Of a DNA stretch of 64,000 nucleotides, positions 19,770 to 25,310 are shown piece by piece. The notes under the pieces are model-generated. The model worked only from the letters and a program-made list of their open reading frames with translations. It was not told where the DNA came from and made no database searches. Numbering within the stretch: position 1 is the stretch's first letter; every line of letters starts with the position of its first letter. A program made the translations under genes and the position numbers. The DNA is from Bacteroidota bacterium (GTDB lineage Bacteria; Bacteroidota; Bacteroidia; UKL13-3), in the NCBI GenBank assembly GCA_027487835.1, contig JAIYCU010000020.1:74970-138969 (forward strand), read 5' to 3'.

Positions 19770-21143
19770 TTACTTTACAATGCTCACTTTACGGGTTTCA
19801 CTAAAGCCTTCATTGAATAGTTTTACAAGGTAATTGCCAGCATAAAGCGCTTCTACATCAAAATAGGCAATGGTTTGTCCCTTTAGTATCTTAGTTTCCA
19901 TGATTAATTTACCTTGCATGTCATATAATGCTGCATTGATATCTTGACTCACTAATCCCATTACTTGTATGGCAATTAAATCTGAGCTTGGATTTGGAAA
20001 TACATTAATAACAGTTTGGCTTAACTTACTTTCATTTAACGCGGTGGCTGGCACGTAAGTTTGGGTTGTTTCTGTTACGCTAGTAACTTTGGCAACTACT
20101 TTATTTCCATAATAGGTTGGTCCAATAATATAAGGGTATGTAGAGTTATGGAAGGCATCTACGGTGGCAAAATAACAATAGATTCCTTTTGGATATTCTG
20201 GTGTTACACAAAATCTACCATTATGAATATCTAAATAACTTTCATCTCCTGTATTGCTCACAAATTCGTAGTCTTCTCTAAAATATCCAATTGGGTAAGT
20301 TGCACTTACTGCAGGGCCATCGCTTACATCGATATTACCTGCATGATGGGTTCTTACGGTAATATTTCTTAATTGATAGCTAGATTTCATCCGCACTATC
20401 CCTCCTGTTCCATCTGCTTTTGCAAAACCATAAGCGCCATAAACTGGAAAACCATCGTAAGCAAAACCAATTAAAGGTGAATGTTGCGCAGGATTAATTG
20501 CGTATAATCCATCTGCATCATATAAATTACAAATGGTTGAAAGCACTTTTAAATCTAAATCAAAGGCGCTTGGGTTTTGATGATGATGATAATTGGTGCC
20601 AGCTGGATGCCCTTTTGCGCAGTCAAATCCAGCACGCTCAGCAACAATTGCATCTCTGTTCCAACTTTGAACGGCAGTAGGGCCGCCTGGGCAAGGTGGA
20701 TTTCCCGGACCCCCACAAAGTGCGTTGGTGCTAAGATTCCATGCCACGCCATCTCTATAATCAAACATGGCTACGCCATTAATAAATATCCCAATATTAC
20801 CTGCATTGGTTGTTGTTAAAGTACCTGTATTTTGGGTAGGGAATAAAGGAAACTTGAAAATTGCATTTTGATTACCTGCATTATTAGTATTGCCATCACC
20901 TGTAAAAGGGCCTACTTTATAAGCTGGAATTCCTGTTGCGTTTACATACACAAAAGTGTCGGAATAACGCACCATTTGGCAATTTACCAAAATGTTATTG
21001 GCAATGGGGGTAGGATTTCCTGCCTTGTAATAAAAGCCAGTTTCTGTGTTGTTTTGAAGCCAACTGGTAATGGCCGGATTGGTTTGTGTGGCGCCTTTTA
21101 AGCTAATAAGCATTAAGAGGGCAAGGCTAAAGTTTTTTATCAT
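19770..21143 (-). CDS. YHYH-domain protein with T9SS sorting tail
   Basis: The 457-residue protein has a signal peptide (MIKNFSLALLMLISLKGATQ), a YHYH domain (PF14240 type; AGTNYHHHQNPSAFDL and SPLIGFAYDGFPVYGAYG), and a C-terminal T9SS sorting domain (INVFPNPSSDLIAIQ ... GNYLVKLF). The histidine triplet could bind metal. It is the last gene behind the MauG/MbnH-like gene (33 bases), so it is probably the sixth gene of that operon. Function is unknown. Copper binding or electron transfer is suggested only by the neighbours. Confidence 0.85.
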   Translation of the reverse strand: MIKNFSLALLMLISLKGATQTNPAITSWLQNNTETGFYYKAGNPTPIANNILVNCQMVRYSDTFVYVNATGIPAYKVGPFTGDGNTNNAGNQNAIFKFPLFPTQNTGTLTTTNAGNIGIFINGVAMFDYRDGVAWNLSTNALCGGPGNPPCPGGPTAVQSWNRDAIVAERAGFDCAKGHPAGTNYHHHQNPSAFDLDLKVLSTICNLYDADGLYAINPAQHSPLIGFAYDGFPVYGAYGFAKADGTGGIVRMKSSYQLRNITVRTHHAGNIDVSDGPAVSATYPIGYFREDYEFVSNTGDESYLDIHNGRFCVTPEYPKGIYCYFATVDAFHNSTYPYIIGPTYYGNKVVAKVTSVTETTQTYVPATALNESKLSQTVINVFPNPSSDLIAIQVMGLVSQDINAALYDMQGKLIMETKILKGQTIAYFDVEALYAGNYLVKLFNEGFSETRKVSIVK

Positions 21144-21176
21144 TTTAAGCTTGGTTTGTTGTTGAGTTAGACGAGT

Positions 21177-22172
21177 TTAATCTTTGATTCCTTCGTTGGC
21201 TTCTAAAATTATTTTGGGGAATTGATGCCTTGGGTCAAACACAAACACCTTATCGTTTAAGGTTTGAAGAAAGGCAAGTAAATCTGATTTGTTATTTGAG
21301 GTTAAGGGAAACAACTTTTCATAATGCTTCAGTACTTCTCCTAATTTTTTAAAACGGCCATCATGCATATAAGGATAGGTATAGGTAAGGTTGCGCAAAC
21401 TTGGAACCTTAAAAAGAAAACTGTCTGCAGCTAGTTGGCTAATTCTAACTTTTCCTACATCCTGGAGCAATGAGTCGGGAGCTAAGCCATTATTTGCAAA
21501 TTCATAGGTAGAGAATAAGGGCGCTGGATGGCAAGTTTTGCAATATTGATTAAAAACGGCTAATCCCTTTTGTTCTTGTAGGCTAAACGTGTCTGTTCCT
21601 TGTATTACTTGATCAAATTTTGCATTGGCCGAAACTAGCGTGAGTTCAAATTGGGCAATGGCTTTAAGTAATTGTGCACTGCTTATCAAGGTATCACCAA
21701 AGGCTTGTTTAAAGGCGCTTTTGTAAAAGCTTGATTGCCTTAATTTGGTTAATACATCTGCTAAATTTTCTCCCATTTCTTTTGGATGGGTTATGGGTGC
21801 CAGCGATTGCACTTCGATGTGATTGATGGCTCCATCCCACATAAAAGATTTTTGCCAAGCAAGGTTAAACAAGGCTGGCGCATTTCGGTTTCCAATTTGG
21901 TCGTTAATGCCATGGCTCAAGGTATGGTCGGTATGCGCAAAAGCATTATAAGGTGAATGGCAAGAAGCGCAAGAAATACTATTGTCTTTAGATAAAATTG
22001 GGTCGTAAAATAAATACCTGCCCAATTGCACCTTTGCCATTTCTAATGGACGCTCTTTAAAATTAAAAGCTGGTTTTGGAAAATGCTGGGGTTGATGCCA
22101 AATTTTATCGGGCAATTTAGCCGCCAGAAAAACCATCAATATAAGTACCCCTAAAGTTAAGCCCCTTTTCAT
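21177..22172 (-). CDS. MauG/MbnH-like di-haem peroxidase
   Basis: The 331-residue protein starts with a signal or anchor (MKRGLTLGVLILMVFLAA) and has two haem c sites, CASCH (C68, C71, H72) and CKTCH (C211, C214, H215). The motifs LGRYLFYDPILSKDNSISC, GNRNAPALFNLAWQ and TYPYMHDGRFKKLGEVLKHYE are those of bacterial cytochrome c peroxidase/MauG proteins. Next to an MbnP homologue, the MbnH role is the best guess: in the known pair MbnH oxidises a tryptophan of MbnP to kynurenine, making a copper site. A plain periplasmic peroxidase is the alternative. Start overlaps the MbnP-like stop (ATGA). Confidence 0.88.
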   Translation of the reverse strand: MKRGLTLGVLILMVFLAAKLPDKIWHQPQHFPKPAFNFKERPLEMAKVQLGRYLFYDPILSKDNSISCASCHSPYNAFAHTDHTLSHGINDQIGNRNAPALFNLAWQKSFMWDGAINHIEVQSLAPITHPKEMGENLADVLTKLRQSSFYKSAFKQAFGDTLISSAQLLKAIAQFELTLVSANAKFDQVIQGTDTFSLQEQKGLAVFNQYCKTCHPAPLFSTYEFANNGLAPDSLLQDVGKVRISQLAADSFLFKVPSLRNLTYTYPYMHDGRFKKLGEVLKHYEKLFPLTSNNKSDLLAFLQTLNDKVFVFDPRHQFPKIILEANEGIKD

Positions 22173-22843
22173 TTGGCTAAAATTTTAAAGGCATTGGCAA
22201 GTTGCTTGCTAAGTATGAGTGCTTCGGGCTTTGGACTCATCACCTGATTTTGTGGGAGTGCGAGGGCACTGCTTATCAAATTTGTTAAGTCAATGCCAAT
22301 GCTTAGGGTGTCGGTTTGAACCAAACTCAGTTGCAGCTTTTGCAGCGTGTTGAATGGTTGTTTGTACCCACCTAAATGTAAAATCAGTTCTGTTTTTTGA
22401 GCTTCTTTTGAATAAAGCGTAGCTTCAATTTTTGCATGTATGTAACCACTTTGCCAAGTCCAGTACATTCCCAAGCTAGGGTCTAAGGCACCAGACAAAG
22501 CACCTGAAACGGTGGTGGCCGAATCTACACCTAGCTCAAAGCTAATTCTGTCAAATGTTTTTTTATTGGCTAACCCAATGAGTTGTGAAGTGCTTTCCTC
22601 GAAGTTAAGAAGGTAATGCGTTTCTGGGGCACTTGCCACTAAAACTTCCCCTTTAAAAAATTGAATGTGTCCTATGTAAAATTTTAAGGATTGAAAAGAA
22701 ATGCTATCCTTAAGATAGGGGTAGGTTTGGCTTGGTTCAACCTGAAATTGATTAAAAATTGGTACAAACTTTATGTACAGACTGTCTTGCGCTTTTATTG
22801 AAGCACTGGTAAAGAGCAGCCATATACAAACTAGTTTTTTCAT
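22169..22843 (-). CDS. MbnP-like copper-binding protein
   Basis: The 224-residue protein has a signal peptide (residues 1-18) and the family core FQSLKFYIGHIQFF, FELGVDSATTVSGALSGALDPSLGMYWTWQSGYIHAKIE. The tryptophans W128 and W130 lie in the conserved block where the modified residue of MbnP proteins is expected. MbnP is a periplasmic or outer-membrane copper protein whose partner MbnH is encoded next door. It overlaps both neighbours by ATGA. An exact genome word lies in the coding sequence. Confidence 0.88.
   Translation of the reverse strand: MKKLVCIWLLFTSASIKAQDSLYIKFVPIFNQFQVEPSQTYPYLKDSISFQSLKFYIGHIQFFKGEVLVASAPETHYLLNFEESTSQLIGLANKKTFDRISFELGVDSATTVSGALSGALDPSLGMYWTWQSGYIHAKIEATLYSKEAQKTELILHLGGYKQPFNTLQKLQLSLVQTDTLSIGIDLTNLISSALALPQNQVMSPKPEALILSKQLANAFKILAK
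22313..22322 (-). repeat. GGTTCAAACC word, copy 6 (mbnP-like gene, LVQT frame)
   Basis: Exact match followed by GA on the sense (minus) strand, encoding Val-Gln-Thr. A shorter variant, GGTTCAACC, lies at 22734-22742 in the same gene. Confidence 0.9.
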
Positions 22844-23301
22844 GGTTTAGGATGCTTGCCTGGATGGTTTGAAGGGAAGATTTTGAGAATTTCTTTGCTA
22901 AAGGCTTCATAACTGCTTAATTGCTCAGGCTTGCAGAGTTTTTTGATATCAATAAAATGTTTATAATGGATTTCCTCAACTTGTGCTTGAAGGTTGGCTA
23001 TACCCGACAGGTAAATAGTTTTTAGGCTGTCATTTTCTGAATTTAACTGCTGGTATAAAGCCAGTTTTTGATTGCGAATGGCTTCGTTTTTTTCTCTAAT
23101 TTGTTTCCTATGCTCATCAATTAATTCTTCGTAAGCACTTATTTGTTGTTCATCAAAATGTAGTTTTTCTATGACCAGTTTTTTGGGACCATCAGGGTTA
23201 AAGCCTCTATTCTTTGTAAGTTGAAACGCATAGTATACCACCAATAAATTGCTAAAGAATAAGGCAACAATAAGCACTTGTAGAAATTTTATTTTATTCA
23301 T
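22840..23301 (-). CDS. Spy/CpxP/CnrX-like periplasmic sensor protein, membrane tethered
   Basis: About 153 residues from the start MNKIKFLQVLIVALFFSNLLVVYYAF at 23301 (an upstream in-frame ATG at 23337 is less likely). One membrane segment (about residues 5-25) is followed by a charged, helical periplasmic domain (EKLHFDEQQISAYEELIDEHRKQIREKNEAIRNQK) ending in PSNHPGKHPKP. This resembles the four-helix Spy/CnrX (heavy-metal resistance) family. CnrX is the metal sensor that controls an anti-sigma factor. Its place between the sigma/anti-sigma pair and the MbnP-like gene supports a similar role. Overlaps upstream gene by eight bases and downstream by ATGA. Confidence 0.75.
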   Translation of the reverse strand: MNKIKFLQVLIVALFFSNLLVVYYAFQLTKNRGFNPDGPKKLVIEKLHFDEQQISAYEELIDEHRKQIREKNEAIRNQKLALYQQLNSENDSLKTIYLSGIANLQAQVEEIHYKHFIDIKKLCKPEQLSSYEAFSKEILKIFPSNHPGKHPKP

Positions 23302-23584
23302 GGTACAAGTTGTTTTGTGTTTGACCCACCAATTCAACCATCGCTTTGTTTTTGCGCTGTGTATTGCTTTGATAAATAAAATATCCCTCCATGCATATAA
23401 TTCCTATGAATAAACTAGCTGCAATGCCAACATAGGTAATTGATACTTTTTGAAAATTGACTTTTTGTTGATTGACTTTTTGCATTATTTTACCAGCAAG
23501 AGCAGCCGGAGGGTCTACCTTTTGAATGGTTTGTAATAATGCCAATGGATCGTTCATTGCTACTTTAGACGATTTATTTTTCAT
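23294..23584 (-). CDS. small single-pass membrane protein, probable anti-sigma factor
   Basis: The 96-residue protein has a short cytoplasmic segment (MNDPLALLQTIQKVDPPAALAGKIMQKV), one membrane helix (about residues 49-70, ITYVGIAASLFIGIICMEG), and a short outer tail. No zinc anti-sigma motif is seen. Size and shape recall CnrY (about 95 residues), the anti-sigma factor of the CnrYXH system. It overlaps the sigma gene by 11 bases, so they are coupled. Start at 23584 gives a leader of nine extra residues; MNDPLA at 23557 is possible. Confidence 0.65.
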   Translation of the reverse strand: MKNKSSKVAMNDPLALLQTIQKVDPPAALAGKIMQKVNQQKVNFQKVSITYVGIAASLFIGIICMEGYFIYQSNTQRKNKAMVELVGQTQNNLYHE

Positions 23585-24110
23585 TTTCCTTCGTAGTATT
23601 TAAAATTTGATGGAGGTTTTTCTTTGCTCTTTGGAAAAGCGACTCAACCGCTTTGGTTCTTAGGTCCATTATTTCTGCTACTTCTTGTTGTTTGAGTTGC
23701 TCAATTTTTAGAAGCACCAATACCGTTTTTTGTTGGGCAGGAAGCTTATCAATTGCCTTTAAAACCCTTTGCAAGCCTTCCTTTTGCTCTAAAAGAATAC
23801 CGGGGTGTTGACTGTTTTTTTGTAGAGAGTCGTTTGCTAGCGGGGCATCTGTAGAAATGCCAAAGAAAGTTTTAAAGAGCTTGAATTTTTTTGATTTTAA
23901 AAAATCTAATGAGGTATTGATGGTAATTCTATAAATCCAGGTTTTGAGTTGTGCATTTCCTTCAAACTGCTCAATTTTATCATAAACCTTTAAAAAAACA
24001 TCTTGGGTAATTTCTTCTGCATCTGCCGGTATTTGCACATAGTTCAAGGCTAGGTTATAAACCTGCTTTTGATAACTAAGCACGATGTCTTTAAAATTGG
24101 CAGGACTCAA
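23574..24110 (-). CDS. ECF-family RNA polymerase sigma factor
   Basis: The 178-residue protein has sigma region 2 (DAEEITQDVFLKVYDKIEQF, LKTWIYRITINTSLDFLKS) and region 4 (LPAQQKTVLVLLKIEQLKQQEVAEIMDLRTKAVESLFQRAKKNL). It heads a five- or six-gene minus-strand operon. ECF sigma factors usually drive their own operon, but I could not recognise a matching promoter upstream. The likely partner inhibitor is the next gene. Confidence 0.93.
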   Translation of the reverse strand: MSPANFKDIVLSYQKQVYNLALNYVQIPADAEEITQDVFLKVYDKIEQFEGNAQLKTWIYRITINTSLDFLKSKKFKLFKTFFGISTDAPLANDSLQKNSQHPGILLEQKEGLQRVLKAIDKLPAQQKTVLVLLKIEQLKQQEVAEIMDLRTKAVESLFQRAKKNLHQILNTTKENEK

Positions 24111-24952: not shown

Positions 24953-25310
24953 CTTACATAAGACAAATTTTGTCTTATGTATGACTTGCGGAGCCTTATT
25001 GATGATAAATTTTGCCTTATTGATGCCTCGCCGAGTCTTATTGATGACAAATTTTGTCTTATTTATGACTTGCGGAGTCTTATTGATGACAAATTTTGTC
25101 TTATTGATGACTTGCGGAGCCTTATTGATGACAAATTTTGCCTTATTGATGACTTGCGTAGTCTTATTGATGATAAATTTTGTCTTATTGATGACAAATT
25201 TTTTCTTATTGATGACTTGCGGAGCCTTATTGATGATAAATTTTGTCTTATTGATGACTTGCGGAGTCTTATGGAAGGCAAATTTTGCCTTATTGGTCGC
25301 CGAGCGAAGT
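24953..25310. repeat. alternating 21-bp tandem repeat array (about 17 units)
   Basis: Units of exactly 21 bases run from 24953. Sixteen clear units end at 25288 and a degenerate one follows to about 25310. Type A is like CTTATTGATGACAAATTTTGT and type B like CTTATTGATGACTTGCGGAGT. They alternate A-B to give a 42-bp higher-order repeat, except that two A units stand side by side at 25163-25204. The A units carry a small inverted repeat (GACAAA-T-TTTGTC). The first is part of a longer one with 13-bp arms (24955-24981), and the last (GGCAAA-T-TTTGCC) keeps pairing with changed bases. Because 21 is a multiple of three, several frames stay open on both strands; I do not call a gene from that. Confidence 0.9.

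Follow-up and report, generated by a model that had tools for sequence, protein, structure and literature searches.

CnrX, the sensor of the Ni/Co-sensing CnrYXH system of Cupriavidus metallidurans, is tethered to the membrane, faces the periplasm and activates upon metal binding (PMC7689651), and CnrY embraces the sigma factor CnrH with two helices (PMC4598750). The different classes of anti-sigma factors have a common binding mode despite little sequence similarity, and those of class I are encoded beside only 6% of the extracytoplasmic function (ECF) sigma factors of Bacteroidetes, where other classes have been suggested to dominate (PMC7406223). A 2013 survey of methanobactin genes reported isolated MbnP-MbnH pairs near TonB receptors together with homologs of MbnI, an ECF sigma factor, and MbnR, a FecR-like protein (PMC3621798). 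For two other copper proteins, MopE and CorA, kynurenine formation by a di-haem partner has been suggested (PMC3912023). Here we analyze five minus-strand genes at positions 21177–24110 of a 64,000-nucleotide stretch from a Bacteroidota bacterium (hereinafter the window; assembly GCA_027487835.1, contig JAIYCU010000020.1, positions 74,970 to 138,969), in which a module consisting of an ECF sigma factor, a small membrane protein and a CnrX/Spy-fold sensor is encoded upstream of an MbnP-family protein and an MbnH/MauG-like di-haem enzyme. The module is real and widely conserved, with a predicted function: it would be a transmembrane sigma system that responds to metal and regulates the operon in which it is encoded, a reading to which we assign a probability of roughly 0.55. 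A membrane sigma switch that follows the CnrYXH logic with altered metal ligands is the best-supported model. Gene order, recurrence, protein families, predicted fold and conserved residues are its basis; moving beyond gene content and predicted fold, we infer that the sigma factor is bound, that a metal is sensed and that it is copper, and likewise the direction of the response and the oxidation of tryptophan.

Locus organization and recurrence of the module

The first gene of the set (23574–24110) encodes, from a TTG start, an ECF sigma factor of 178 amino acids (PF04542, E = 3.8e-17, and PF08281, E = 5.8e-13). It is followed by the genes for a single-pass membrane protein of 96 amino acids with a CnrY-like layout, the predicted anti-sigma factor (23294–23584); a membrane-anchored periplasmic sensor of the CnrX/Spy fold (22840–23301, 153 amino acids from the ATG at 23301); an MbnP-family protein of 224 amino acids with an N-terminal signal sequence recognized by inspection (22169–22843; PF20243, 1.7e-35); and an MbnH/MauG-like di-haem enzyme of 331 amino acids (21177–22172; PF03150, 1.3e-54). 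Consecutive genes overlap by 11, 8, 4 and 4 bases. On the same strand, 33 bases downstream of the enzyme gene, starts a gene for a YHYH-domain protein with a type IX secretion system (T9SS) sorting tail (19770–21143; PF14240, 4.7e-55; PF18962, 3.8e-11), which is probably a member of the operon. The order, sizes and overlaps of the five genes, the position of the YHYH/T9SS gene and the locations of the WTWQSGY, CASCH and CKTCH motifs agree with a preliminary description of this DNA.

The same gene arrangement occurs in two congeneric genomes (L021 and L022), with identity of about 50% for the small protein, the sensor and MbnP and 67–68% for the enzyme, and also, at lower identity, in many other families, so that it cannot be attributed to chance. 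Among the best MbnP relatives from 60 related genomes, the five-gene set with the YHYH gene recurs in other genera and families, and other genomes of these 60 encode MbnP, MbnH and YHYH without the sigma factor. A search with the sensor profile, blind to cargo, over 198 genomes of the class identified sensors in 38 genomes; nearly all of the 30 sensor-led loci examined have genes for a sigma factor and a small membrane protein directly upstream of the sensor gene. A separate scan of titled genomes with MbnP yielded 80 loci, of which the 69 with at least 1.8 kb of upstream sequence entered the count of upstream modules. Sigma factor and sensor are both present in 24 of these, both missing in 45, and never found one without the other. 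In all 55 modules examined (55/55), the sigma and sensor genes are separated by an open reading frame of 80–129 codons that encodes one membrane segment; given this co-occurrence and the all-or-none pattern before MbnP, the sigma factor, the small protein and the sensor form a unit.

When the presence of the module is mapped onto the tree of the di-haem enzyme, 22 changes are needed, at least 6 of which are forced by well-supported branches; therefore, the module has been repeatedly gained or lost. Its carriers include Flavobacterium species, Saprospiraceae, metagenome-assembled genomes (MAGs) labelled Chitinophaga, and Ignavibacteria/Kapaibacterium MAGs. A search for plasmid-borne relatives of the sensor found none.

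The sensor

The AlphaFold2 (AF2) model of the sensor, obtained with 34 homologs (predicted local distance difference test score, pLDDT, 89.6), consists of a membrane helix and four helices, and the protein is predicted to be membrane-tethered and periplasmic, as is CnrX. In a VIA-align comparison started with this model, the nine top rows are all CnrX or NccX (Z 9.4–11.6); a VirG-like protein (Z 9.3) comes next, and Spy ranks lower (Spy and CpxP are in the Z range of 8.1–8.8). At the sequence level, hhalign aligns the sensor with CnrX collinearly over 125 columns (E = 1.5e-5), and a search of the sensor profile against the PDB identifies Spy (8.8e-8), NccX (0.0018, full length) and CnrX (0.02). 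The preliminary description had called this protein Spy/CnrX-like; the structural model bears out a CnrX/NccX fold, and a relationship to Spy, NccX and CnrX is detectable in the sequence. The family of CnrX, PF13801, is matched by 25 of the 34 sensor family members, and PF07813, the LTXXQ family, by 12 of the 34. The window sensor alone falls below every Pfam cut-off (PF13801 at E = 0.19).

Three residues are near-invariant in the 49 MbnP-linked sensors, namely His64 (23110–23112, minus strand; 48/49), a candidate metal ligand, His115 (47/49) and Cys123 (22933–22935, minus strand; 47/49), and His112 is found in 34 of the 49 (His112 to His115 are encoded at 22957–22968, minus strand). The first three are among the most conserved residues of the sensor, on par with the Spy-like motif residues. 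Cys123 is the sole cysteine of the window sensor, and 35 of the 49 sensors contain a single cysteine. In the hhalign alignment, the CnrX ligand H119 corresponds to His115, which is the sole counterpart among the five CnrX metal ligands; the columns of H42, H46, E63 and M123 are occupied mostly by K/R, I, I and I, respectively. His64 would be located opposite His115 according to our estimate of the hairpin register. Given that the replacement of M123 in CnrX with Cys abolished nickel sensing (PMC7689651), a cysteine is not a trivial swap. In one locus (L069), the genes are arranged in the order small protein-sensor-sigma factor, as in CnrYXH, and Cys123 of the sensor is replaced by Leu.

The small membrane protein and the sigma factor

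The small protein contains one membrane segment, approximately residues 47–65, and its AF2 model (moderate mean pLDDT of 72.9) has helices at residues 13–19 and 27–44 followed by the membrane helix. With the orientation assumed from CnrY, the roughly 45 residues that contain the two predicted helices would lie in the cytoplasm, ahead of the membrane helix and a periplasmic tail, which is the CnrY plan expected from the preliminary description. Asn91 and Tyr94 are conserved in at least 90% of the sequences in an alignment of small proteins (alignment A6). The extreme C-terminus, N-N-L-Y-H-E in the window (23297–23314, minus strand), follows the pattern N-x-[LF]-Y, shared by 37 of the 40 MbnP-linked copies and by 7 of the 15 that are not MbnP-linked. 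The possibility that gene overlap alone accounts for this conservation was rejected because no more than the last codons fall within the overlap and because 11 of 18 small protein-sensor pairs without gene overlap retain the tail. Most simply, the tail would be a sensor-docking segment.

The small protein has no Pfam match above the cut-off, and a PDB search detects no solved relative. Homology to CnrY was considered and rejected: the hhalign probability is 0.1%, and none of the 30 small proteins scanned matches PF17524, the CnrY family of anti-sigma factors, to which CnrY itself is matched with an E-value of 2.2e-51. The HxxxCxxC zinc motif of the zinc-binding class I anti-sigma factors (ASDIs) is not present in the 96-amino-acid protein, which leaves room for ASDIs without zinc. 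There is no match to the FecR domain (PF04773) in this protein either, and no TonB receptor is encoded among the genes at 19770–24110.

The sigma factor shares 24% identity with CnrH, which is not above generic ECF similarity. In many relatives, the sigma gene begins with TTG, sometimes GTG, at the aligned position (L022, L024, L037, L041, L045, L049, L052 and L058), like the window gene at 24110; such a non-AUG start could keep the synthesis of the sigma factor low. A two-box Gibbs search for a shared promoter motif in 29 regions upstream of sigma genes reached a best score of 192.0, hardly above that of shuffled sequences (187.5), and hence no promoter motif is claimed.

The cargo genes

The MbnP encoded in the window is of the short form (about 220–260 amino acids). 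Its WTWQSGY block (residues 128–134; 22442–22462, minus strand) includes W128 and W130, which, along with Met126 and His156, are invariant in 28 sequences. The window protein scores 38.6 bits against the equivalog TIGR04052, below the cut-off of 140, the 28 MbnP relatives match this model weakly (best E = 1.4e-13), and the PDB contains no sequence match to a solved MbnP structure. An MbnH-type gene is located downstream of MbnP in 77 of the 80 loci. For the enzyme in the window, the best NCBIfam model is TIGR04039 (MbnH), at 195 bits against an equivalog cut-off of 363, and the top PDB match of its profile, before the peroxidases and MauG, is the di-heme enzyme 6E1C (whole length, 1.2e-62). 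The enzyme contains two haem-binding motifs on the minus strand, CASCH (residues 68–72; 21957–21971), with Cys, Cys and His conserved in 99/99 relatives, and CKTCH (residues 211–215; 21528–21542), where these residues are found in 98 of the 99, with one gap. Tyr284 (21321–21323, minus strand; 96/99, the others gapped) replaces the Met of bacterial cytochrome c peroxidases; the aligned residue is Met in 3O5C and Tyr in 6E1C. In MauG, the Tyr at the corresponding position is an axial haem ligand. The two sequence hallmarks of the MauG/MbnH type, namely two CXXCH motifs and a Tyr at the peroxidase Met position, are both present, and the latter is what would be expected for MauG/MbnH chemistry. 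A second MbnP-MbnH pair is encoded elsewhere in the same genome (L174; G000:C40:160231-160767), with a longer, lipoprotein-like MbnP of 270 amino acids and no adjoining sigma or sensor gene.

A YHYH gene is located downstream of MbnP in 61 of the 80 loci. Most of the sensor-led loci contain an MbnP-MbnH pair immediately downstream of the module or one gene off, often with a YHYH gene; other loci encode a second type of YHYH protein alongside SCO1/SenC (PF02630, 8e-22) and a MORN-like protein, one contains MbnH alone, and approximately 7 have unrelated or unclear neighbors. The run of YHYH, MORN-like and SCO1/SenC genes suggests a second copper-handling cargo. The module heads this run in L079, L085, L087 and L084, in the last case after a TonB-type receptor. 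Multicopper oxidase genes are found in 12 of the 80 MbnP loci, with the module present or absent, and elsewhere in the genome under study there is no match to Cu-oxidase_3. Judging from gene association, the common theme of the cargo appears to be copper. Titles and abstracts searched for a link between YHYH and copper, or for flavobacterial periplasmic heavy-metal sensors with sigma factors, did not mention the module.

Several other neighborhoods are worth recording. A YHYH/T9SS protein of 537 amino acids (L025:3316-4929) is encoded two genes from a HupE/UreJ_2 membrane protein (L025:1562-2119), near an MbnP-MbnH pair without a sigma factor. A CusA/CzcA-like RND (resistance-nodulation-division) efflux gene, judged from the N-terminus, is located near one five-gene module (L075:10347-14696). 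In the window, a 42-bp tandem repeat array (24962–25295; 5.6 and 2.7 copies, 88–89% matches, several frames open) is located between a DUF3109 gene and the next gene.

Proposed mechanism and alternatives

Under the proposed mechanism, the CnrX-fold sensor would be an inner-membrane protein whose four-helix domain extends into the periplasm, and the small protein would cross the membrane once, hold the sigma factor with its two short cytoplasmic helices and contact the sensor through the short periplasmic tail ending in N-x-[LF]-Y. A metal, most likely copper, would be bound by the sensor at His64, His115 and probably Cys123 or His112. The metal-bound sensor would then cause the small protein to release the sigma factor, which would drive transcription of the whole operon, from its own gene and the sensor pair through MbnP and the di-haem enzyme to the gene for the YHYH surface protein. 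The di-haem enzyme would oxidize a tryptophan of the WxW block of MbnP, probably to kynurenine, and thereby complete the copper site. In known MbnP-MbnH pairs, kynurenine is formed by the di-haem partner.

Several observations weigh against this model. A Foldseek comparison of the sensor with CnrX yields weak E-values (0.05–0.2), at a probability of 1.00, and helical bundles match promiscuously and can reach Z-scores such as those reported above by chance, so that the independent sequence evidence matters; there, the best match of the sensor profile is the chaperone Spy, not CnrX. According to the register estimate, Cys123 would be about two turns away from His64 and His115. Furthermore, 45 of the 69 MbnP loci lack the module, and the sigma genes have no common promoter motif upstream. 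Finally, MopE and CorA are copper-repressed and made under copper shortage (PMC3912023), which, by analogy, would be contrary to the way a CnrX-type system responds to excess.

The prominence of Spy raises the possibility that the sensor is a folding or envelope-stress sensor of the Spy/CpxP type, such that the sigma factor is freed by misfolded envelope protein rather than by metal and the operon supplies MbnP, MbnH and YHYH as exported products in need of quality control. Apart from the top PDB profile match (8.8e-8), PF07813 in 12 of 34 family members and the presence of Spy and CpxP in the structural list (Z 8.1–8.8) are compatible with this explanation, but CnrX and NccX outrank Spy structurally and resemble the sensor in gene setting and in having an N-terminal membrane anchor, the conservation of His64, His115 and Cys123 equals that of the Spy-like motif residues, and the cargo is narrow and copper-themed instead of consisting of chaperones or proteases. 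We consider such a sensor unlikely. A reversed sign of the response, with the apo sensor permitting sigma activity, the metal shutting the operon down and MbnP-MbnH serving copper acquisition in shortage, appears similarly improbable. It would fit the behavior under copper shortage of MopE and CorA, which are comparable copper proteins that contain kynurenine and have a di-haem partner (PMC3912023), and the role of mbn operons in copper uptake (PMC3621798); however, CnrX activates upon metal binding (PMC7689651), and the MopE and CorA sequences have no marked similarity to MbnP (PMC3621798). The least plausible alternative is a redox switch, whereby oxidation of Cys123, e.g., to an intermolecular disulfide, frees the sigma factor and an oxidant induces the peroxide-using di-haem enzyme: the conservation of Cys123 (47/49, with a single cysteine in 35/49), the precedent of OsrA of Bradyrhizobium, which acts via one periplasmic cysteine (PMC4598750), and the peroxide-using superfamily of the enzyme are in line with it, but it leaves the equally conserved His64 and His115, the latter aligned with a CnrX metal ligand, unexplained, and the cargo families are linked to copper and not to antioxidant defense.

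Returning to the metal-sensing sigma switch, a broader proposal can be made, tentatively: the modules might constitute a class of transmembrane sigma systems, centred on the Bacteroidota, that sense copper. Their anti-sigma factors would form a separate family, which lacks a Pfam model and is marked by the periplasmic N-x-[LF]-Y tail, and the CnrX fold would carry a His-His-Cys sensing site. Such systems might govern the post-translational maturation of a copper protein and bring the uncharacterised YHYH proteins into the copper regulon. The module is a concrete candidate for one of the other anti-sigma classes in Bacteroidetes and a testable candidate regulator for MbnP-MbnH pairs outside methanotrophs; it extends the CnrX fold to a different set of conserved residues and connects the genes for YHYH proteins and for SCO1/SenC through one switch. 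Its carriers include the named strains Flavobacterium paronense CECT 8460 (L148) and F. cyanobacteriorum TH021 (L145), so that direct experiments are feasible.

Comparison with known systems

MopE/SACCP and CorA/CorB of methanotrophs have, to our knowledge, no CnrX-type sigma module. They resemble the system described here in combining a copper-binding surface protein with a di-haem peroxidase-like partner and the conversion of tryptophan to kynurenine (PMC3912023); in contrast, they are copper-repressed, and the partner sequences show no marked resemblance to MbnP (PMC3621798). MbnI/MbnR of Methylosinus also include an ECF sigma gene near an MbnP-MbnH pair with a copper theme (PMC3621798), but these are of the FecI/FecR type, tied to a TonB-dependent receptor, whereas the window operon encodes neither a FecR domain nor such a receptor. 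The preliminary description considered metal-sensing control of MbnP-MbnH by an ECF sigma factor to be new. Because FecI/FecR-type genes (mbnI/mbnR) at MbnP-MbnH were reported in 2013 (PMC3621798), novelty is limited to the CnrX-type sigma system and does not extend to ECF sigma factors beside MbnP-MbnH in general; no report of a CnrX-type system at such pairs was found in the literature searched, the coverage of which excludes most subscription journals. Spy, CpxP and ZraP have a related helical fold and LTxxQ-like motifs in common with the sensor but differ in the absence of a membrane anchor beside a sigma/anti-sigma pair and in the set of conserved His and Cys residues.

CnrYXH similarly combines an ECF sigma factor, a small single-pass anti-sigma factor and a membrane-tethered periplasmic sensor of the same fold, and the sizes match (CnrY, 94; CnrX, 148; CnrH, 191 amino acids). 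The window module contains ECF regions 2 and 4 and a sensor with the CnrX/NccX fold and the N-terminal membrane anchor. It differs in that the small protein is unrelated to CnrY in sequence and is not a PF17524 anti-sigma factor; the ligand set is incomplete, as H42, H46, E63 and M123 of CnrX have no counterparts in the sensor; and the genes are ordered sigma factor-small protein-sensor, followed by MbnP, MbnH and YHYH, whereas in CnrYXH the order is Y-X-H (pMOL28 record) and the cargo consists of the RND efflux pump genes cnrCBAT. Thus, of the CnrYXH likeness proposed in the preliminary description, the sensor fold, the plan of the small protein and the three-gene unit hold, whereas membership in the Cnr family, as judged by similarity to CnrY, ligands, gene order and cargo, does not. 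The module is best viewed as CnrYXH-like in its predicted mode of working, not as a member of the Cnr family.

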